Assembly: GCF_000526395.1 (NCBI RefSeq)
Contig: NZ_JAFZ01000001.1
Span: forward strand, 310,001 to 374,000
Origin: Aminobacterium mobile DSM 12262
GTDB taxonomy: Bacteria > Synergistota > Synergistia > Synergistales > Aminobacteriaceae
DNA length: 64,000 bases
Reading direction: 5' to 3'
Shown here: positions 4,605 through 15,893 of the stretch, one piece after another
Layout of the letters: every line of letters starts with the position of its first letter
Position numbering within the stretch: the stretch's first letter is position 1
Translations under genes and position numbers: made by a program
The notes under the pieces: generated by a model
Database searches by the model: none
What the model was told of the DNA's origin: nothing
Seen by the model: only the letters and a program-made list of their open reading frames with translations

Positions 4605-5480
4605 ATGGATTTTTTTATTACTGGAAGCGGTGGACAACTGGCATGTGCTTTCCAGCGCCTTTTCAAAGAAGAAGATCTTTCTTTTTCTGCATACTCCCGC
4701 CAAGAACTAGACATAACAGACATAGGGCGTCTCAGAAGGCGCATAGAAGAAGATAAGCCGAACTGTATTATCAACTGCGCGGCGTGGAACGACGTAGACG
4801 GTGCGGAACAAAATTGGCGGGGAGCGTATATGGTTAATGCCATGGGCTCCAAAAATGTAGCTATAGTTGCCGGGGAGCAGGGTATTCCCCTCATCTCTTT
4901 CAGTACAGACTATGTTTTTAATGGTAAAAGCGTACGCTCGTGGACTATTGCTGACGCACCTGACCCTCTTAATGTGTATGGGCGCAGTAAGCTTTTGGGA
5001 GAACAGTTTATTCGGGATCACACCTCTCGGTTTATTATAGTAAGGGCGAGTTGGGTTTTTGGACCTGAAGGGAAAGAATCATCAAATTTCCTCAAAAAAG
5101 TGTTTCAATGGAGTCTGAATCAGCGAGAGCTTCGAATTGTCTCAGATCAGATATCGAGCCCTACATATGCTCCAGATCTGGCAGAGCGAGTATTGGAACT
5201 CCTTTATCGTCGGGAATGGGGACTCTACCATCTTTCGTGTGCTGGTCGGTGTAGCCGTTTTGAATGGGCTTCTTTTGCTCTTAAAGAACTGGGATGGCAG
5301 GGAACCATAGAACCAGCACGAAGCGAAGATTTTCGGCCTTTAGCTCAGCGCCCGGCAATGAGCGCATTAGATTCTTTTCCCTTAGAGGAGTTGAGTATTC
5401 GTATGCCTCGTTGGGAAGATTCAACTCTTCGTTTTTTAAAATCTATTGGACAGAAGAATGGTGACATTAATGACATATAG
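4605..5480 (+). CDS. rfbD: dTDP-4-dehydrorhamnose reductase family (RmlD-like)
   Basis: NAD(P)-dependent short-chain reductase of the extended SDR group, 291 residues, that in the pathway makes dTDP-L-rhamnose for cell-surface glycans. The N-terminal FITGSGGQLA is the dinucleotide-binding motif; STDYVFNG and YGRSKLLGE carry the active-site Tyr-x3-Lys; SWVFG is typical of RmlD. No rmlA, rmlB or rmlC lies nearby, so it may act on another nucleotide sugar or be a stand-alone copy. Its last 23 bases overlap the RNase H-like gene in another frame. Confidence 0.82.
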   Translation: MDFFITGSGGQLACAFQRLFKEEDLSFSAYSRQELDITDIGRLRRRIEEDKPNCIINCAAWNDVDGAEQNWRGAYMVNAMGSKNVAIVAGEQGIPLISFSTDYVFNGKSVRSWTIADAPDPLNVYGRSKLLGEQFIRDHTSRFIIVRASWVFGPEGKESSNFLKKVFQWSLNQRELRIVSDQISSPTYAPDLAERVLELLYRREWGLYHLSCAGRCSRFEWASFALKELGWQGTIEPARSEDFRPLAQRPAMSALDSFPLEELSIRMPRWEDSTLRFLKSIGQKNGDINDI

Positions 5481-6063
5481 TGGACATTTTGATGGAGCTT
5501 CCCGTGGAAATCCAGGTGAAGCAGGAGCAGGAGCCCTGCTTTATGACGGAGAAGGCAATATTATATGGCAAAAAACGACGTATCTTGGCTCCAAAACGAA
5601 TAATGAAGCAGAATACGAGGGATTGCTCATGTTGCTTCGCGAAATAAGAGAGCGGAATATAGAGCAAATTGTTATTCGTGGAGACAGTCGACTTGTAATC
5701 TGCCAGATGAAAAAAGAGTGGAAAGTAGCCAGTCCCCATCTTAAAATACTTTGGGAAGAAGCCCAGCGTTTGATCCGTGGCCGCTCCATTGCCTTTGAAT
5801 GGGTCCCAAGGGAGGAAAACAGCGATGCAGATTGTCTGTCAAATCAGGCCATAGACAAACATTCTGCGGATAAGCCTTCCGTCAATGTTTTTGATCCTTC
5901 TCGCCTTGAAAAGGTGGCGCCTTCTATCTTTATTGCCCATGGGACGGAAGATTATGCTGTAGATGTGAAACATAAGGCATGTACCTGCCTGGGTTTTATG
6001 CACCAAAAGCGCTGTAAACATTTAGACGCGGCCCTTTCCCTCTTAAATGGCGCTAAGTCTTGA
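5458..6063 (+). CDS. RNase H family protein with C-terminal SWIM-like zinc motif
   Basis: A 201-residue protein with two parts. Residues 6-135 are RNase H-like (RVT_3 type): FDGASRGNPG with the first Asp, NNEAEYEGLL with the Glu, RGDSRLVI with the second Asp and ENSDADCLSN with the last Asp, so all four metal-binding acidic residues are present and it should cut RNA in RNA-DNA hybrids. The last 45 residues contain C175-x-C177-x8-C186-x-H188, the pattern of SWIM zinc-binding motifs. Start is uncertain: ATG 5458 or ATG 5470, both inside the end of the upstream gene. The combination of the two domains is unusual. Confidence 0.82.
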   Translation: MVTLMTYSGHFDGASRGNPGEAGAGALLYDGEGNIIWQKTTYLGSKTNNEAEYEGLLMLLREIRERNIEQIVIRGDSRLVICQMKKEWKVASPHLKILWEEAQRLIRGRSIAFEWVPREENSDADCLSNQAIDKHSADKPSVNVFDPSRLEKVAPSIFIAHGTEDYAVDVKHKACTCLGFMHQKRCKHLDAALSLLNGAKS

Positions 6064-6118
6064 GACTCTATTATTGAGCTCTCGATAAAAAGTACCCTAG
6101 TATTAGGAGGCATTTGTT

Positions 6119-7306
6119 ATGGCGTCGCAACTTGATAGAAGAACTTTCCGACTCTGCTGGCTCGTAACATATTTCAGTCAGACATTTGTCTCTATGTTCT
6201 TTCTCTATCCAGTGGCCATTCAACAGCAGGGATTTCCTTTTATCCTTACCGGGTGGCTCATGAGCATTTTCAGCGTCACATCTACGCTGGTTCGTCCTTT
6301 TAGTGGAATAATAACAGAGCGGATAGGCGTTCGGAAAAGTTTGCTCATAGCTTCTATTTTTCTTTTTGCTTCATCACTTCCGTTGTTGTGGGTTCAGTCT
6401 TTTTCCGGCCTCATGATCTTGCGGGCGTGTATGGGCTTCTTCTATGGAATTGTGATGGTAGCTATTACTACGTATCAGGCCCTGAGCATTCCGGCCGATC
6501 GCCGGGGGCGTTTGTACGCCTGGATCGCTATTGCGTATGTATTGCCTCTCGTAACAATTCTTCCAATAGCCGAATTCTCTCTCTCCCGTATGGGAACGAG
6601 CTTTTATCTTATTTTGGCCCCTCTTCTTGTCCTCGCTCTCATTTTTTCTACGAAGTACCTTCCGCGTCTCGCCGAACTGGAACATTCCGATGAAGATGAC
6701 TCTCCTTTCCCCCATAACAGGAACCAGGCGCAACAATGGGGAAGTTGGAAAGAGATGTTTTCCGTTCCAGGTTTTTGGCCTCTTATGGCGACTCTTCTGA
6801 CGTGGTCTCTCGTCAATTCCTCTACCTTACAATATATGCCCTCCCTTATTCATTCCAGAGGAATGATTGCCAGTGCTTTTATGATGACAAACGCAGTAGT
6901 TTCTCTCTTCTTGCGCTTCCTTGCCACGGGAATTATGGACCGCATAGACCGCACGTTGATAGGAAGCCTTTCCATTGCTCTTATGGGCGCTGTAGTGGTA
7001 GGTGCAAAAGTAGCTTTCAGTAACCAGGCTTTCTGCTTTTTAGGAGCTATTTACGGGATAGGCATGGGAATGGGTTTCCCTGTAATGCTTGCTTTAATGC
7101 CAGATATATTCCCTCGCCATCTTCAGCCGAAGGGAGTGGCGGCGGGGACTCTTCTTATGGAAGGGGGCTTCATTATAACTCCCTTCATTATGAGTTATGG
7201 AGGCTTTCTATGGGGGCTGGAGAATGTTTTGGCTCTTATGGGCGCTTTTGGATGTGCAAATGGATTGTTCCTTGCTTTTAAAGGCTGGAGGCGCTCACGT
7301 CGGTGA
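6119..7306 (+). CDS. MFS transporter
   Basis: Twelve-segment major facilitator carrier, 395 residues. It carries the family's loop motif after the second helix (GIITERIGVRKSLL, matching GxxxDRxGRR) and a GIGMGMGFPVM helix in the second half. AGGAGG lies nine bases before the ATG. Substrate unknown; a similar carrier occurs at 54043. The last 29 bases overlap the convergent gene ending at 7278. Confidence 0.85.
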   Translation: MASQLDRRTFRLCWLVTYFSQTFVSMFFLYPVAIQQQGFPFILTGWLMSIFSVTSTLVRPFSGIITERIGVRKSLLIASIFLFASSLPLLWVQSFSGLMILRACMGFFYGIVMVAITTYQALSIPADRRGRLYAWIAIAYVLPLVTILPIAEFSLSRMGTSFYLILAPLLVLALIFSTKYLPRLAELEHSDEDDSPFPHNRNQAQQWGSWKEMFSVPGFWPLMATLLTWSLVNSSTLQYMPSLIHSRGMIASAFMMTNAVVSLFLRFLATGIMDRIDRTLIGSLSIALMGAVVVGAKVAFSNQAFCFLGAIYGIGMGMGFPVMLALMPDIFPRHLQPKGVAAGTLLMEGGFIITPFIMSYGGFLWGLENVLALMGAFGCANGLFLAFKGWRRSRR

Positions 7307-8087
7307 GAGTGGGCGTCGCATCTATAAGCCTTCGAGTGTATCTGTGTTTTGGGAAGGATAAGAGCTTTTGCGTTGCTCCCTCTTCGCAGCATTCCCCCCG
7401 TAACAATATCATGCCTTTCTCTGCTGCAGCCCTGGCGAGATAGAGATCATGTGTAACGAAAATCATAGACATGCCGTATGTTACTCTCTCACATAAAAGA
7501 TCTACAATATCACTTCGAGTCGAGGCGTCTTGCATGCTTGTAGGCTCATCGCATAAAAGAAGCTCTGGTTCTAAAATCAGAGCTCGAGCCAAAGCGATAC
7601 GCTGTCTTTGCCCTCCAGAAAGACCAGATCGAACGCGGGTGGAGAGAAGTCGATCTTCCCGTATCCCTAATTTTTCAAGAATATTTCTAGCTCTACCGTA
7701 CGCTTCAGAGCGGCTTTTTCGCCCATATACGATAATCCATGGTTCTGCTACAGCATCTATAACTGTCAATGTGGGAGGCAGACTGCCGTAAGGATCCTGA
7801 GAAACATAACCACATCGTCGTCGAAGCCCTATGCGTTCTTGACGCGAGCAACGATGTATATTTCCCCCGAAAAGAAAAGACGCTCCTTCTGTAGGAGAAA
7901 TAAGCCCTAATAAAATTCGTAAAAGAGTTGTTTTGCCACTACCTGATTCTCCAATAAGGGCAAGACTTTCTCCCTTTCGTAATATGAGATTTATATTTTT
8001 AAGAGCCCAACAACCACGTTCATTTCTTCTCCTGGATGGGAAGAAGACGCTAACCTTTCTTGCCTCTACGAGGAATCCGTTTGTCAT
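7278..8087 (-). CDS. Peptide/nickel ABC transporter ATP-binding protein (OppF/DppF-like)
   Basis: ATPase of the importer, 269 residues: Walker A GESGSGKTT near residue 45, signature LSGGQRQR, Walker B ELLLCDEPTS and switch His in FVTHDL. ATG 8087 overlaps the TGA of the upstream ATPase gene and has AAGGAGA six bases before it. It is the last gene of a five-gene leftward operon. The usual C-terminal iron-sulfur extension of full-length DppF proteins is absent; the protein ends soon after the KHRYTRRLIDA stretch. Confidence 0.9.
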   Translation of the reverse strand: MTNGFLVEARKVSVFFPSRRRNERGCWALKNINLILRKGESLALIGESGSGKTTLLRILLGLISPTEGASFLFGGNIHRCSRQERIGLRRRCGYVSQDPYGSLPPTLTVIDAVAEPWIIVYGRKSRSEAYGRARNILEKLGIREDRLLSTRVRSGLSGGQRQRIALARALILEPELLLCDEPTSMQDASTRSDIVDLLCERVTYGMSMIFVTHDLYLARAAAEKGMILLRGECCEEGATQKLLSFPKHRYTRRLIDATPTLTDVSASSL

Positions 8088-8863
8088 GACCAATCTCCTT
8101 CTATCTTTTTCAGAGCTTGAACAAGCTGAATTGTATGAGAGTGACGAGGAGCGTTCACTATTTTTGAGGGGCTTCCTTCCTCAACAATCTCTCCGCTTTT
8201 CATTACTGCTATCTCATCACAAATATGGGTAGCTAAAGGGAGGTCATGGGTTACGAAGAGCATGCCCATATTTCGTCTTTTTACTAAATTCTTTAGCATA
8301 GATATAATCTCTTTCTGAGTAATTACATCAAGAGCAGTTGTTGGTTCATCTGCGAGAAGGAAGGCTGGATCACACGCTAAGGCAATGGCTATGGCCGCTC
8401 GTTGCTTCTGCCCTCCAGATAGTTCATGGGGGTATCTTTTTGCAAGAAAAACTTCAAGTTCGGCCTCTTCGAGCAGAGAGGCGCATCTCTTTTTGGCAAC
8501 TGAGCCGGAAAGTCCAAGATGAACCTCTAAAACTTCTTCTATATGTTCTCCTATGGTGAGCACTGGCGTAAAGGAATTCATAGCTCCTTGCGGAACCAGC
8601 GCTATCTCTTTCCATCGAATAGAGTTCAACATACTGTCATTAAGAGTTAAAAGGTTAATATTATCGTAAATAATGGCCCCTTCTACCGTGACTTGGGGAG
8701 AAAGGAGCCCTGGGATAGCCATGAGGAGAGAGCTTTTCCCACTTCCAGATTCTCCTACAAGGCCCGTAATGGTGCCTTTATGGAGAGTTAGAGATACGTT
8801 CTTGATGGCGAGTACCTTGTTTTTCCCTTCATAGGTTACGGAGAGGTTGATTATATCAATCAT
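8084..8863 (-). CDS. Peptide/nickel ABC transporter ATP-binding protein (OppD/DppD-like)
   Basis: First ATPase of the pair, 259 residues, with Walker A GESGSGKSS near residue 40, signature LSGGQKQR and Walker B FLLADEPTTALD. It starts with ATGA overlap to the permease gene and ends in overlap with the second ATPase, so all are co-translated. It is shorter than E. coli DppD (about 325) because the C-terminal oligopeptide-transporter extension with its cysteines is missing, as in nickel-type NikD proteins. Confidence 0.9.
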   Translation of the reverse strand: MIDIINLSVTYEGKNKVLAIKNVSLTLHKGTITGLVGESGSGKSSLLMAIPGLLSPQVTVEGAIIYDNINLLTLNDSMLNSIRWKEIALVPQGAMNSFTPVLTIGEHIEEVLEVHLGLSGSVAKKRCASLLEEAELEVFLAKRYPHELSGGQKQRAAIAIALACDPAFLLADEPTTALDVITQKEIISMLKNLVKRRNMGMLFVTHDLPLATHICDEIAVMKSGEIVEEGSPSKIVNAPRHSHTIQLVQALKKIEGDWS

Positions 8864-10044
8864 GACCGCGCTTCCCCCTTCAAAAGAGGATCCACTCGTT
8901 CTTCTAAATATTTCCCCAGATCAAGAAAAACCAGACAGAGCAATGTAATCCCCAACCCTGGGGGAAGAAGTAGCCACCAGGCTCCTTGAGAGAAAGCGCC
9001 AAAAGCATAAGCTTCGTGAAGCATCCGCCCCCACGAAATGATGCGAGGATCTGAGAGCCCTAGAAAAGAGATACCTGCCTCAGATAGAATGGCGCCAGGA
9101 ACTCCCAAGGCGATATTGGCCAAAAGCAGGGGGAGGGTTTCTGGTAGCAAGTGGCGCCAGAGAATATAATGAGTCGGAGCACCAAGACCTCGCAAGCCCT
9201 CGATGTAGCCGCTATCTCGCAGAGTAAGTGTCATTGCTCGAACTGTACGAGCCGTCCCCATCCATGAAAAAAGCGAAAGAATAAGAACCAATTGCCAAAG
9301 GCCCTTCCCCCAAAAAGCGGCTAAAACCATGAGGATGGGGAGGATTGGGATGGAGAGAAGCACATCTACACCTCTCATAATGAGGGCATCAAGCCATCCC
9401 CCAACATAACCACTTAAGAGTCCAAAAGAAAGGCCTAGAAAAGTGGCCAGAAAGGTTGCGCTGATCCCCACTATCAGGGAAACTCTCACCCCCTCTATAA
9501 AAAGGAGCAAGACATCTCGGCCGCGCTGATCTGTTCCTAACGCTCCCCACCGCCCTCCCTCTATATGTAAAGCGAGGTCTCCCTTTACAATATATTCTGG
9601 GTGATCAAAAGCAAGAGTGTACTCTCCCTCTTCAGGGAAAAGAACCTGAGGAACTTGTGCAAAAGGAGAGGCGCCAAGCATCTCTTTAAAAGCCATGTCC
9701 CGCCCGTCTATCTCCAGAGTTGTTTCCCCTTGAGGAAAGAGCAGCAAAAAAAGTTCTCGATCTGGCATTATCCAGAGGAGAGAGACAGGCTTTGTAGCTA
9801 CAATATACCCTACGAGACGAAGGCGAGCTGGAGGGCTATATGTCCATGCAATAGAGGATTCCCCTTTGTTTTTCGATATGGCGAGGTCTATCGTAGGAGG
9901 AAGATTGTGACGTAGCCATAGTGGTTTCGCAAAGGGCGGTGCTACTTCATCAGAAGGAGAAATGCTAAAAAGGGAGGGGCCCACCATTGCCAAGAAGAAG
10001 AGGCATAGGAGGACACGGAAGCTCCATCGTCGATGCAGCTCCAT
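8860..10044 (-). CDS. Peptide/nickel ABC transporter permease (DppC-like) with large external insert
   Basis: Inner-membrane permease of 394 residues; DppC proteins are usually near 300. After the first membrane helix (residues about 9-28) there is a 150-residue hydrophilic, beta-rich stretch containing GETTLEIDGRDMAF and FPEEGEYTLAFDHPEY before the conserved LGTDQRGRDVL motif that normally follows after some 50 residues. The remaining helices and the docking loop (EGLRGLGAPTHYIL) are normal. The extra stretch should face the cell exterior/periplasm and might contact the binding protein. Starts in TAATG overlap with the other permease. Confidence 0.88.
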   Translation of the reverse strand: MELHRRWSFRVLLCLFFLAMVGPSLFSISPSDEVAPPFAKPLWLRHNLPPTIDLAISKNKGESSIAWTYSPPARLRLVGYIVATKPVSLLWIMPDRELFLLLFPQGETTLEIDGRDMAFKEMLGASPFAQVPQVLFPEEGEYTLAFDHPEYIVKGDLALHIEGGRWGALGTDQRGRDVLLLFIEGVRVSLIVGISATFLATFLGLSFGLLSGYVGGWLDALIMRGVDVLLSIPILPILMVLAAFWGKGLWQLVLILSLFSWMGTARTVRAMTLTLRDSGYIEGLRGLGAPTHYILWRHLLPETLPLLLANIALGVPGAILSEAGISFLGLSDPRIISWGRMLHEAYAFGAFSQGAWWLLLPPGLGITLLCLVFLDLGKYLEERVDPLLKGEARS

Positions 10045-11018
10045 TATTTTTCTCTCCTTTCAAAACGAACCCTCGGGTCTACTATGCCGTAAAGAAGGTC
10101 AGCAGCCAGGTTGCTGAAAATTGTCAGTAAAGCGAGAAGATAGAAGGCAGCGCTGGCAGCAGGATAGTCGCGACCGGTTACAGAATCGAAGAGGAAACGA
10201 CCTACTCCATGCAGAGAGAAAACAGTTTCTGTAATGACTGCCCCTGAAATAATCCCTGGTATGGAGAGGAGCAAAATAGTGAGGAGGGGAGGGATAAGAG
10301 TGCGGAAAGCGTGATTCCAGACAATTCGTTTTTTCGGGAGGCCTCGAGCCTTTCCCATGGCAATAAAATCTTCCCCCAAAACTTTCACCATAAGGTTTCG
10401 CACATAGAGAGCCCATCCTCCAAAACTGAGAAGGACTAAAGATCCTACAGGCAACATAAGATGCCACACGTAGTCGATTATGGAGACCCAGAATCCTTGA
10501 GGAGGAGGGATGGAGACACTGCCTCGAAGTGGGAAGAGGGGAAGAGCGTAAGCAAAAGCCATAAGTAGAATGAGTTGCAAAAAGAAAGAAGGAAAAGAGA
10601 AGGAAAGAGCGCCGCCCCATAGAACAATTCTCTCTCCCCAGCACCCCCTTTGTAACGCAGCTCGTATACCAAGCCATGTGCCAATACCTGCAGAAAGGAG
10701 CAACGCTGATCCGAGCAGCGCAATAGTATTGGGGAGACGGGAGGATAGCTCTTCCCAAATAGGCCGAGCGGTGAGAAAAGACAATCCAAAATGGAAAGTG
10801 ACCATTTGTTTCATATAGAGAATAAATTGAGTCTCCAGAGGCTTATCCAGACCGTATAGACGTTGCAATTCCATCTTGGCTTCAGGAGAAAATCTGGGAT
10901 CCAGAATGGTTCCTACAGGATCTCCCGGCATAAGGCGGAAGAGCAAAAAATTTAAGACAAGAACAATGAACAGAACGAGAATGGAGCCTGCTATTCGTCG
11001 AGCCCAGTAATTTTTCAT
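10044..11018 (-). CDS. Peptide/nickel ABC transporter permease (DppB-like)
   Basis: Inner-membrane permease, 324 residues, starting at ATG 11018 behind GAGGG; the open frame extends farther up only because it runs through the binding-protein gene. The N-terminus (RIAGSILVLFIVLVLNFLLF then RLMPGDPVG) and the docking loop (ARGLPKKRIVWNHAFRTLI) are typical of the DppB/NikB family. It starts ten bases after the binding-protein stop codon. Confidence 0.92.
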   Translation of the reverse strand: MKNYWARRIAGSILVLFIVLVLNFLLFRLMPGDPVGTILDPRFSPEAKMELQRLYGLDKPLETQFILYMKQMVTFHFGLSFLTARPIWEELSSRLPNTIALLGSALLLSAGIGTWLGIRAALQRGCWGERIVLWGGALSFSFPSFFLQLILLMAFAYALPLFPLRGSVSIPPPQGFWVSIIDYVWHLMLPVGSLVLLSFGGWALYVRNLMVKVLGEDFIAMGKARGLPKKRIVWNHAFRTLIPPLLTILLLSIPGIISGAVITETVFSLHGVGRFLFDSVTGRDYPAASAAFYLLALLTIFSNLAADLLYGIVDPRVRFERREK

Positions 11019-11028
11019 GGTTGATCCC

Positions 11029-12711
11029 TCATTTGCGAAGAAGCCAGAAGTGGGGGTTGCGTATAAAGTGAACGTACTCTCCAGGGCGATATTCTTTGAA
11101 GATAAAGGGCCCTGACCCCACCAACTGGGAGAGTCCCTCTTCGCCTTCCAACGGGGTTTGTGCTGGTTTCCAACTCTGCCAATCCGATACTTTTTCCAGT
11201 ATATGACGAGGAAAAATAGGGAGCCCCCCAATATTATGGAGATGCCAATAGCTCGTGGTCTTCATAGTAACCTCCAAGGTGTATTCGTCAGGCGTCTCAA
11301 CTTTATCAACATCACTCACAGCATCATAAAATCGAGGTGGCCGATGTTTTTTAAGAAAGCTAATAGTAAAAGCAGGGTCAGAAGCTGTCAGGGGACGTCC
11401 GTCCTGCCACGTAACCCCTTTCCTAATATGGAAGGAGAGTTTTGTTGCCGGAAGGTCTCCCTCTCTTATAGTCTCTATCTTCCATGATTCAGCGATCCAT
11501 GGAAGATCGCCCAGGTTTTCAGGATTTATTGCCAGAAGGGCGTCGTAAATAAGTGACAGAACGTTCCAGTCATAGGCGGAACTGGCTGTTAGAGGGTTGA
11601 GAGAGCGTGGCTCATCTGCAAGAGCTACACGAAGGGGTTCCATAGAACCTTCCCTCGGTTCCATGCGCAGGAAACTCCATATATTATCCGATGTTGTATA
11701 GGAAGTGGCATACGTCCCTTTCCACAACGTCGAAGCGGCGGATATGGAATATCGACTGTAGATCGGAACTACTGGCACAATGTCTGCCAACATCTTTTGG
11801 GCTTCAGAAGCTGCCAATCGAGCAGAGGCTTCGTCGTGGGCCCATCGAAGCCTTTCGAGAATGCTATCCAGGTTGGAATTATATATGCCAGGAATATTAT
11901 ATCCGCCCTTTACGTCCATAGAGGAGTGGTATAAGGCGAACAAGGAATCTGGGTCCCGTGTCATCTGCCACGCCAAAACATATGCATCGAATTTTCGCTC
12001 GTCCAGCAGTGCGATCATAGTAGAAAAATCCATGGGTTCGACCTCTATGGGAATCCCAATGGCTCGAAGAGAAGCCGCAGCTTGTTCGGCGATCTCTGCT
12101 GTTGTGGGAGCTATCTGAGCAGTAGGCGAGAGGAGCTTCTGTGGAGTAAGAGTTCTTTTAGCATCAGGTCCGGTCCCATCTGGAGATACGAGGATGCCAT
12201 TTTTGTTCCAGCTCCAGCCAGCTTCCTGTAGACGTTTTTTCGCATGATCAGGGTTATAAGGGTAGGTAACCACATTTTGTTCAAAGTAGGGAGAAGCTGG
12301 AGGTAAAAAGGTAGACAGTGGCTCTGCATAGCCCGAGAAAAGGTCTCGTACCAGTTTCTCTCGTGGAATTGCCTCGCAAACGGCCTGGCGTAACGCTACA
12401 GAGTTCCATGGAAAGGCTCGTAAATTAAAACCGAGGAAAAATCCGTGGAATCCTTTTGCAAGAGACATGCCTATTGAGAGATTCTGAGACAACCTCTCAA
12501 TATCTACAGGTCGAGCAATATCACTGAGGATATGAACCTGCCCCTTCTCCAGAGCCAAAAGTTGGGCATCAGGATCACGTACAATTATCAAATATAAATC
12601 TGTAACACGAGGACCAGAAAAAGAGCTCATCTCAAAAGCTCTTGCAGACACTGGTAAAATCATGACGAAACTAAGAATAAAAATAGCTACAATTATCAGT
12701 GTACGCTTCAT
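11029..12711 (-). CDS. Family 5 solute-binding protein in circularly permuted order
   Basis: Extracytoplasmic peptide-type binding protein, 560 residues, with a normal signal peptide (MKRTLIIVAIFILSFVMIL, cleavage near ARA-FE). The order of the fold is unusual. Residues 30-350 match what is normally the second part of the family: DPDAQLLALEKGQVHI, FLGFNLRAFPWNSVALRQAV, YPYNPDHAKKRLQEAGW, and VPVVPIYSRYSISA, which normally lies close to the C-terminus. From residue 358 the normal beginning follows: LRVALADEPRSLNPL, LSFHIRKGVTWQDGRPLTA and GSGPFIFKEYRPGEY, ending at NPHFWLLRK. In ordinary DppA/OppA proteins that FW motif leads directly into the segment found here at residue 30. No frameshift or second copy is visible. 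First gene of its operon. Confidence 0.88.
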   Translation of the reverse strand: MKRTLIIVAIFILSFVMILPVSARAFEMSSFSGPRVTDLYLIIVRDPDAQLLALEKGQVHILSDIARPVDIERLSQNLSIGMSLAKGFHGFFLGFNLRAFPWNSVALRQAVCEAIPREKLVRDLFSGYAEPLSTFLPPASPYFEQNVVTYPYNPDHAKKRLQEAGWSWNKNGILVSPDGTGPDAKRTLTPQKLLSPTAQIAPTTAEIAEQAAASLRAIGIPIEVEPMDFSTMIALLDERKFDAYVLAWQMTRDPDSLFALYHSSMDVKGGYNIPGIYNSNLDSILERLRWAHDEASARLAASEAQKMLADIVPVVPIYSRYSISAASTLWKGTYATSYTTSDNIWSFLRMEPREGSMEPLRVALADEPRSLNPLTASSAYDWNVLSLIYDALLAINPENLGDLPWIAESWKIETIREGDLPATKLSFHIRKGVTWQDGRPLTASDPAFTISFLKKHRPPRFYDAVSDVDKVETPDEYTLEVTMKTTSYWHLHNIGGLPIFPRHILEKVSDWQSWKPAQTPLEGEEGLSQLVGSGPFIFKEYRPGEYVHFIRNPHFWLLRK

Positions 12712-12905: not shown

Positions 12906-13361
12906 ATGTCTATCTTAAAAGAATTCAAAGAGTTTGCCGTGAAGGGTAACGCTATGGATATGGCGGTAGGAATCATTATTGGTGGAGCATTTGGGAGCGT
13001 TGTTTCTTCTTTGGTGAATGATGTAATAATGCCGCCTATTGGGTTACTTATGGGCAATGTAGATTTTAAAGATGTTTTTTGGGTTTTGAAGGAAGGGGCG
13101 ACGGCTGGGCCCTATGTTTCTTTGGCGCAAGCAAAAGAGGCTGGAGCTGTTACATTGAATGCAGGTTTGTTTATTAACTCCATAGTAAGCTTTCTTATAG
13201 TGTCCTTCGCTGTTTTTGTCCTTGTGAAAAATTTGAACCGACTAAGAAAACCATCAATGCCAGCACCGAAACCACCAGTAAAAATATGCCCGTACTGCTT
13301 CACTGAAATTCCTGAACAGGCTCTTCGATGCCCAGCTTGTACTTCTACTTTGGAAAAATAA
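12906..13361 (+). CDS. mscL: Large-conductance mechanosensitive channel MscL with zinc ribbon
   Basis: Inner-membrane channel that opens on membrane tension and releases solutes during osmotic downshock. The N-terminal amphipathic stretch and first helix (EFKEFAVKGNAMDMAVGIIIGGAFG) with the conserved pore glycines are at residues 5-30; the second helix is at about 85-107. Residues 125-149 carry CPYC...CPAC, a zinc ribbon added after the usual cytoplasmic helix; total 151 residues against 136 in E. coli. A good -10 element TATAAT is at 12864-12869, without a convincing -35. RBS is the G-run at 12895-12900. Confidence 0.93.
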   Translation: MSILKEFKEFAVKGNAMDMAVGIIIGGAFGSVVSSLVNDVIMPPIGLLMGNVDFKDVFWVLKEGATAGPYVSLAQAKEAGAVTLNAGLFINSIVSFLIVSFAVFVLVKNLNRLRKPSMPAPKPPVKICPYCFTEIPEQALRCPACTSTLEK

Positions 13362-13363
13362 AA

Positions 13364-13405
13364 TAAGGCCAGATCTTGAAATGTTCAGGATCTGGCACGG
13401 CCTTA
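13364..13405 (+). terminator. Hairpin behind mscL, containing an inverted copy of the repeat
   Basis: TAAGGCC (13364-13370) is complementary to GGCCTTA (13399-13405), and CCAGATC (13369-13375) to GATCTGG (13389-13395). The T-run is weak, so termination is probable but not certain. Read leftward, 13385-13398 gives TGCCAGATCCTGAA, the same motif as at 12731, so mscL is flanked by inverted copies. Confidence 0.55.
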
Positions 13406-13454
13406 TAATATGGGAATGTAGGTGCAGATTAATGGAAATATGGGGTTATAGGAG

Positions 13455-15254
13455 ATGAAAATACGTAAGTTAAGGTTTTGCAACGCTGGATTTCTGGGCT
13501 CGGGACATGGCATCATTTGTTGTTCCTTTATACTATATGCCTTCCTCTTTTTTGCCCCAACATCTCAGGCTGTAACGATAGCTCCTGTCCTTCAATCTGA
13601 TCACGGCATTGTTGTTGCGATGAATCCTGATGCCGCTAAGGTTGGGGCAGAAATTTTGGAGAAAGGTGGGAATGCTTTTGATGCGGCTATAGCAGTGAGT
13701 GTGGCTTTGGGAGTGGTAGAGCCCTATGGTTCTGGTTTGGGGGGAGAGGGGTATCTTATTGGCAGAACAGCTGATGGGGAGAGATTTGCTTTGGACTTTC
13801 GCAGCGTTGCTCCTCATTTGGCTACATATGAAAATATAAGAAAGAGTAAGATGTCATTTGCGAAGACGATGCAAACTCTGAAGGGGGCAGGTGTTCCCGG
13901 CCTTCCCGCTGCTCTGGAATACATTCATAAAAAGCTGGCAACCATGCCTTTATCGGATTTGATATCGCCGGCTATCCACTTAGCGGAAGAAGGATTTGTG
14001 GTTACTAAGGAATTCGCCCAGGCAGTGGCTTTTTACTACGATCACCTGATCCTTTCCGCTCCTGATTTTCTAAAGAACGGACAGCAACTTTGGAAAGAGG
14101 GAGACCGATGTTTCAATCTACCTTTGGCCCAAACGCTTCGCATTTTGAGTCAAGAAGGATTGCAATCGTTTTATAGTGGTTCTATTGCTGATTCTATAGA
14201 AACATTTATGAAACACAACGAGGGCTGGATTCAAAAAGGAGATCTTCAGTCTTATAGTGTATGTGCGCGAAGCCCTCTTCATGGAACGTATCGAGACTAC
14301 GATATATATGTAGCGGGAATGCCAGCAGGAGGGCCGCGTCTTATTGAAACCCTCAATATTTTGGAGAAATTCAATATCTCTGCTTTTGAATGGGACGACC
14401 CATTACGAATACACCTTATGCAAGAAATTTTTATCCTTACAGCACTGGATCAGGAAAAATTCGTAGGTGATACATCTTTTGACGATCTGCCAGAACATGG
14501 TCTAGTAGATAAAAAATATGCTCAACGTCGTTTTATGGAGCTTAATCTATCTCAGGCTTCTTCCCCAGAGGAATGGAAACAACGCTACGGAAATCCTCTC
14601 CTTTTTGAAGAGGGCAAAAAATTCTCAGATATTTTAATAGAAGAAAAACCCTATAAAGCTCCTATAGAAAACAAGGAAATTGTGCCTGTAGAATCATCCT
14701 CTACAACCCATTTTGCCATAGTGGACCAATGGGGGAATACTGTTTCCTGGACACAGACCATATCCGATTTTTGGGGAACAGGCTATTGGGTAGGAGGTTT
14801 TTTTCTTAACAACGAATTATGTAATTTCCAAGATGGATCCGCACAGGGAGACCCGCTTTACATGGAAGAAGGGAAACGCCCTCGCACTACAATTGCCCCT
14901 TTAATTATAGAAAAGGGCGGAAAGATTAAGTGGGTGCTTGGAACGCCTGGAGGAGGACGTATCGTTTCCACCTTAGTTCAGGTAATAGTAGATCTTGTCG
15001 ATTTTCATATGACCCTTGAGGAGGCTGTAAAAGCTCCTAAATTTGTAGGCTACACTCTGTATCCAGAGTTGCGCATGGAAGACGCTTTCCCTGTGAACAC
15101 TATAAAATGCCTTGAGAAATTTTTCGGCCATACTGTGAAATTGTACCCATATCCAGATGCATTTTTTGGTGGATTAAATGCCATTGGTGTCAATGAAAAT
15201 GGCATCGTTCAAGGAATAGGCTCTCTGCGCCGCAATGGTGCTGCTGGAAAATAA
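13455..15254 (+). CDS. ggt: Gamma-glutamyltransferase
   Basis: Secreted N-terminal-nucleophile hydrolase that removes the gamma-glutamyl group from glutathione and related peptides. Residues 20-38 are a signal segment. The catalytic threonine is T417 in SSSTTHFAIVD; self-cleavage before it gives the large and small subunits. GSGLGGEGYL and LGTPGGGRI, lining the substrate pocket, are present. Length 599, as usual for the family. ATG 13455 follows GGAG with correct spacing. Next to a macrodomain gene but 109 bases separate them; the products would supply glutamate and Cys-Gly for fermentation. Confidence 0.92.
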   Translation: MKIRKLRFCNAGFLGSGHGIICCSFILYAFLFFAPTSQAVTIAPVLQSDHGIVVAMNPDAAKVGAEILEKGGNAFDAAIAVSVALGVVEPYGSGLGGEGYLIGRTADGERFALDFRSVAPHLATYENIRKSKMSFAKTMQTLKGAGVPGLPAALEYIHKKLATMPLSDLISPAIHLAEEGFVVTKEFAQAVAFYYDHLILSAPDFLKNGQQLWKEGDRCFNLPLAQTLRILSQEGLQSFYSGSIADSIETFMKHNEGWIQKGDLQSYSVCARSPLHGTYRDYDIYVAGMPAGGPRLIETLNILEKFNISAFEWDDPLRIHLMQEIFILTALDQEKFVGDTSFDDLPEHGLVDKKYAQRRFMELNLSQASSPEEWKQRYGNPLLFEEGKKFSDILIEEKPYKAPIENKEIVPVESSSTTHFAIVDQWGNTVSWTQTISDFWGTGYWVGGFFLNNELCNFQDGSAQGDPLYMEEGKRPRTTIAPLIIEKGGKIKWVLGTPGGGRIVSTLVQVIVDLVDFHMTLEEAVKAPKFVGYTLYPELRMEDAFPVNTIKCLEKFFGHTVKLYPYPDAFFGGLNAIGVNENGIVQGIGSLRRNGAAGK

Positions 15255-15362
15255 ATGACATCACCCTTACAAACAAGAAAACAAATGACAGTAAAAAATA
15301 AGTATTTTTTAAGTACTTTTAATGGACAAAGGCAATTTTTTCACGAAAGGAGAGGGAGTATT

Positions 15363-15893
15363 ATGACTATCGATAAGAGGATCCGCCTCTACGAGGGAGA
15401 CATAACGACTATGGCGGTGAATGCCATTGTTAATGCCGCAAATACGTCTCTTCTTGGCGGTGGCGGAGTGGATGGTGCTATTCATAGAGCTGCGGGCCCC
15501 GAGTTGCTTAAAGCCTGTCGTTCTCTTGGAGGGTGTGCCACTGGAGATGCAAAGATAACAAAGGGATATAATCTTCCCGCCTCTTACGTCATCCATACCC
15601 CCGGGCCGGTTTGGCACGGCGGAACGAGGGGGGAAGCAGAGCTTCTGGCTTCATGCTACCGTCGAAGCCTGGAACTTGCAAGGGATCATGACTGTACTAC
15701 AATAGCGTTCCCGGCTATAAGCTGTGGTGTCTATGGCTATCCTGTTGCGGAAGCATGCTCAATAGCGCTGAATACGATTTCGGATTTCCTGGCGAACGAC
15801 CAAAAAATCAAGGTAGTTTATCTGGTTGCCTTTGGTTCGGTGATTGCGAGGGAATACGAGAAACTTGGGGTGCCTGCGGCGGAAGAAATATAA
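15363..15893 (+). CDS. Macrodomain protein (O-acetyl-ADP-ribose deacetylase family)
   Basis: A 176-residue stand-alone macrodomain. [23 protein letters not shown] holds the catalytic Asn/Asp pair and the glycine-rich loop that binds ADP-ribose in YmdB/MacroD enzymes; GVYGYP is the second ligand loop. It should hydrolyse O-acetyl-ADP-ribose or remove ADP-ribose from targets in the cytoplasm. ATG 15363 has AAAGGAGAGGGAG directly upstream; the frame is open farther up but without a start signal. Confidence 0.9.

Follow-up and report, generated by a model that had tools for sequence, protein, structure and literature searches.

Circular permutation is a common tool for engineering binding proteins into sensors, and natural circular permutants among ABC binding proteins are, to our knowledge, rare. 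TpMglB-2 (Tp0684) of Treponema, designated 'type Ic / cluster Bc', is a naturally permuted ABC binding protein; it is a cluster B glucose binder that still binds its ligand and closes, and it is present in a conserved set of species (PMC4990184). Among the family 5 substrate-binding proteins (SBPs) of cluster C, Escherichia coli DppA holds the dipeptide ends with R383 and D436, and a scoop of DppB enters between the lobes (PMC12136057). The window, which is the whole 64,000-nucleotide stretch of Aminobacterium mobile DNA analyzed here, codes for a family 5 SBP for which natural circular permutation is the best and a supported reading. Our search of the open-access literature brought up no account of a permuted cluster C protein; prior mention in the subscription literature is possible.

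Order of the two parts in the binding protein

The permuted (type 1) SBP gene (11029..12711, minus strand) has an ATG start and codes for 560 aa, and its assignment is based on Pfam, HMM, and doubled-sequence alignment. Family membership is clear from PF00496 (SBP_bac_5, cluster C; E 1.8e-64), which matches in two stretches, the better of which aligns residues 42-261 with profile positions 154-360. A canonical family 5 HMM of 512 positions, made from other family 5 proteins, aligns residues 32-328 with its positions 216-489 and residues 356-557 with positions 31-215, and PDB proteins place their N-terminal part on residues 361-555 and their C-terminal part on residues 33-333. The linear domain order thus differs from that of solved family 5 members, with the C-part ahead of the N-part. 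These swapped Pfam, HMM, and PDB matches bear out the initial annotation, in which the canonical second part came first and the N-terminal part after it, and the coordinates and motif readings given there are right.

The protein begins with a signal peptide at its new N terminus (∼residues 1-24; 12640..12711, minus strand), recognizable by a positive start and a hydrophobic stretch, with a putative cleavage site and no lipobox. The canonical C-terminal part follows at residues 33-353 (11653..12615, minus strand) and corresponds to canonical ∼214 to the C terminus, spanning HMM positions 216-489 and, by structure, residues 209-507 of mature DppA. A linker of the sequence EGSMEPL (∼residues 354-360; 11632..11652, minus strand) leads from the old C terminus to the old N terminus, its limits set by the structural match, which ends at 353, and by the N-part matches, which begin at 356-361. 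The canonical N-terminal part, from LRVALADEPRSLNPL to NPHFW, occupies residues 361-557 (11041..11631, minus strand), spanning HMM positions 31-215 and matched by PDB chains with their residues ∼15-207.

The cut lies in the loop that follows NPxFW, and its two edges adjoin each other in canonical proteins; for example, the two pieces meet at residues 186|187 of a trimmed canonical paralogue (L003), and thus no residues were lost at the cut. A type 1 profile (residues 33-551) aligns with a doubled Cytobacillus SBP in a single stretch (residues 188-705, 225 bits), with 519 profile positions on 518 residues, and it also forms one stretch against doubled forms of paralogues from the same genome, a Meiothermus SBP, and E. 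coli DppA. When the window protein itself is reordered, two matches of 132 and 86 bits become one of 231 bits. Judged against the doubled canonical sequence, the window protein has each part of the cluster C domain once, with none absent and none duplicated, and the claim that all parts are present once and in frame holds. Lost or duplicated remnants in the flanks of the gene were considered and rejected, as a search for them yielded only one weak 20-nt repeat.

A structure model was built solely from the window sequence and stretches of related loci, using a shallow alignment that was chosen over two others with misaligned C-halves. The whole-protein model has a mean pLDDT of 61.5 and a pTM of 0.61 with this shallow alignment; the C-part is good and the N-part is weak. 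The stretch from residue 34 to 353 can be superposed on the C-part of canonical NikZ, AppA, and DppA with Z scores of about 25-27 (24.9 against residues 209-507 of 1dpp_A), and residue 353 coincides with the C-terminal residue of mature DppA (1dpp_A 507), such that the linker between the old termini is only ∼7 residues long. Modeled alone, the N-part retrieves family 5 proteins in Foldseek (E about 1e-6), but with high rmsd and low pLDDT. None of the matched PDB family 5 structures has a permuted chain. We infer that the permuted chain adopts the Venus-flytrap shape typical of the family, its new ends lying clear of the hinge in the domain I loop that follows NPxFW, and by homology both lobes would be expected to close.

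Conservation and origin of the permuted order

The permuted order is present in 108 of the 188 genomes of the phylum Synergistota as determined by profile search, all within one order, and almost always as one copy per genome. Full-length collinear homologues with 43-69% identity occur in many genera and, within the family and order of the window, in the majority of genomes, whereas the canonical family 5 paralogues of these genomes, including the window's own, have the normal order. An error of assembly or binning, or a recent rearrangement confined to the window strain, has a negligible probability, as the 108 genomes span many genera, include single-contig genomes, and have the same operon around the permuted gene. 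The initial annotation's view of a natural permutation is supported, and full-length collinear orthologues in independent genomes exclude an assembly error. Of 30 genes examined, nearly all have a signal peptide-like N terminus ahead of the permuted parts, like the signal peptide noted there. Tethering, which was proposed for TpMglB-2, was considered as the cause of the permutation and rejected, since a lipobox-like motif is present in only 2 of 30 orthologues.

The gene is evidently under constraint. Differences by codon position between the window gene and locus L021 are 0.24, 0.15, and 0.60, indicating purifying selection, and many residues are invariant among the type 1 proteins of 25 species. 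Two species have broken type 1 copies: one with a frame change (L110:696-2449, in G125) and one with an in-frame TAG (L111:2-1711, in G122), each of which is either a pseudogene or a sequencing error. Together with the 80 of 188 genomes of the phylum without a match at threshold, these broken copies indicate that some lineages can do without the transporter.

Because near kin in the subfamily, those of Cytobacillus and Meiothermus, have the canonical order and type 1 is fixed in its order of bacteria, the ancestral arrangement is the canonical one, and type 1 predates the diversification of that order. An ancestor with the canonical order would have undergone an in-frame tandem duplication, and the first N-part and last C-part would then have been lost before the order diversified. 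This route, put forward in the initial annotation, fits the lack of overlap or loss at the cut, the short linker, and the presence in the window's own genome of a directly adjoining pair of canonical SBP genes that share a frame (L109:1509-4658); such a tandem pair is raw material for a permutant by duplication. A fused dimer intermediate was sought among long open frames and none was found, and the route is accordingly offered as a proposal. Open frames of 857 aa (G015 and G035), 852 aa (G035), and 1,050 aa (the window's own genome) were rejected as fused dimers, each being either a canonical SBP whose frame stays open upstream or a pair of neighboring canonical SBP genes. The canonical SBPs in ∼855-aa open frames (L106:150-2720, L107:493-3063, and L108:490-3045) have no Pfam match in their first ∼330 aa, which may be just an open upstream stretch.

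An exact cut with neither overlap nor loss is also what a clean split would leave, and the gene could have been split into half-genes whose order was later reversed before they fused. We regard this as improbable, because a split version is absent from the loci read and tandem canonical SBP genes exist in the window genome as a source for duplication, which is the preferred route.

Operon, DppC partner, and function

The SBP gene heads an otherwise complete transporter operon, as the initial annotation stated, with genes for DppB, DppC, DppD, and DppF types on the same (minus) strand. These are a DppB-type permease (10044..11018), a DppC-type permease (8860..10044) of 394 aa, which is above the usual length and has BPD_transp_1 at residues 204-384, a DppD-type ATPase (8084..8863), and a DppF-type ATPase (7278..8093). 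The SBP-B-C-D-F order is kept in nearly all type 1 neighborhoods read. Divergent from the SBP gene, at 12906-15893 on the plus strand, are genes for MscL, a gamma-glutamyltransferase, and a macro-domain protein; the first two again adjoin the SBP gene in a congener (L051), whereas most other genomes lack this arrangement.

The additional length of DppC is a ∼120- to 130-aa segment between TM1 and the GTDQRGRD motif (approximately 9550..9942, minus strand), delimited by the HMM span. It should be periplasmic, judging from DppC topology; it is conserved in the window and in loci L050-L068, where the motif reads GTDQxGRD, and it has no Pfam match. The DppC HMM match extends over ∼380 aa in each of the 20 type 1 operons checked, compared with ∼285 aa in most type 2 (see below) and canonical operons. 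However, a longer DppC also occurs beyond type 1, in a Nitratireductor type 2 locus (L082) and in a Sulfitobacter locus with canonical order (L126), and its link with the permutation is therefore a correlation only. The Sulfitobacter locus is on a plasmid (L126:2670-4841) and codes for an SBP of up to 724 aa, with alpha-glucosidase and tryptophan halogenase genes adjoining.

Very probably, the window protein is a functional periplasmic SBP of a Dpp/Opp-type (SBP-B-C-D-F) ABC importer, built on one two-lobed cluster C domain in circularly permuted order. It would be exported by the Sec route and would hand its ligand to DppBC as normal DppA/OppA does. At the positions of DppA R383 and D436, the type 1 columns have gaps or other residues, although the alignment is uncertain at R383, where the residue is present in DppA alone. 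Without counterparts of these two residues, simple dipeptides are unlikely substrates, and the likeliest ligand is a peptide or peptide-like solute of another kind. The lack of conservation of the DppA ligand residues, as well as the broken copies in two species (L110 and L111), might instead reflect a sensor or a relic that no longer imports; this is very unlikely given the conserved full operon, the purifying selection, and the many residues invariant across 25 species, all of which argue for the importer.

A second permuted form and relation to known systems

A second permuted form (type 2) has a different cut. In locus L069 (genome G025), which belongs to the same order as the window, the SBP gene (4617-6293, minus strand) codes for canonical ∼354-488 first and then 33-361. 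It is the only type 2 gene within the phylum and has 43% identity to a haloarchaeal plasmid protein, a pattern that suggests horizontal transfer. Searches with tblastn place type 2 genes on plasmids of Halalkalicoccus, Nitratireductor, Neorhizobium, Microvirga, Roseomonas, Ketogulonicigenium, Maritalea, and several haloarchaea, mostly within SBP-B-C-D-F operons; there are few relatives on viral contigs. The type 2 loci are L069, L081-L086, L089, L091-L095, and L100. Like type 1, type 2 is a permuted cluster C protein of the same transporter subfamily with its old termini joined, but its new ends are at canonical ∼350, not ∼216, its hosts are alphaproteobacteria, haloarchaea, and one species of the window's order, and its DppC is mostly of the usual length.

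Both types have the same join of old C terminus to old N terminus, their linkers resemble each other in sequence (W-x-x-L-x-x-E-P-x-G) and length, and both fall into one subfamily with canonical Cytobacillus, Meiothermus, and other systems in a tree of rearranged SBPs and in a tree of DppB and DppC. They could derive from one ancestor, fused from old C to old N terminus and opened at two places, to which we assign slightly less than an even chance, the alternative being two separate permutations. The SBP likelihood prefers the two types as sisters, a tree that keeps them together scoring 19-22 log units above a free quick search, whereas the permeases are slightly against it, and AU tests decide neither way (p 0.76 and 0.81 in favor for the SBP, and 0.30 for the permease). 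In the permease tree, as in the free SBP tree, type 2 lies beside the canonical Cytobacillus and Meiothermus systems, and any direct join of such termini would be somewhat alike. A broader scenario is rather doubtful, in which two or more stable permuted lineages that differ in their ends descend from an ancient fused or cyclized family 5 SBP, and one of these lineages became fixed in a bacterial order together with a new periplasmic DppC domain as a docking platform for the rearranged protein.

An order-wide permuted cluster C family together with a second cut offers a natural experiment on tolerated ends, the origin of permutation, and adaptation of the membrane partner. It also bears on annotation, in that the permuted protein is named plain SBP_bac_5 and profile-based naming is blind to the order of parts.

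The DppA/OppA/AppA/NikA-type proteins (PF00496, cluster C) are homologous to both halves of the window protein and have the same operon layout, and their C-part superposes with Z scores of 24-27; they differ in that none of the matched solved chains is permuted and the DppA clamp (R383 and D436) is not conserved in type 1. Cytobacillus firmus (L087) and Meiothermus taiwanensis (L099) have the nearest permeases found (DppC with 45.5% identity) and SBPs among the nearest in trees, but with normal SBP order and DppC of normal length. The nearest precedent for a permuted family 5 SBP is TpMglB-2, of the type I, cluster B fold, in which the permutation is at the level of strands, the moved part is poorly conserved, and a fourth hinge crossing is added. 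The window protein is not a member of cluster B, all strong sequence and structure matches being to family 5, and unlike TpMglB-2 its entire sequence is recognizable on both sides of the cut.
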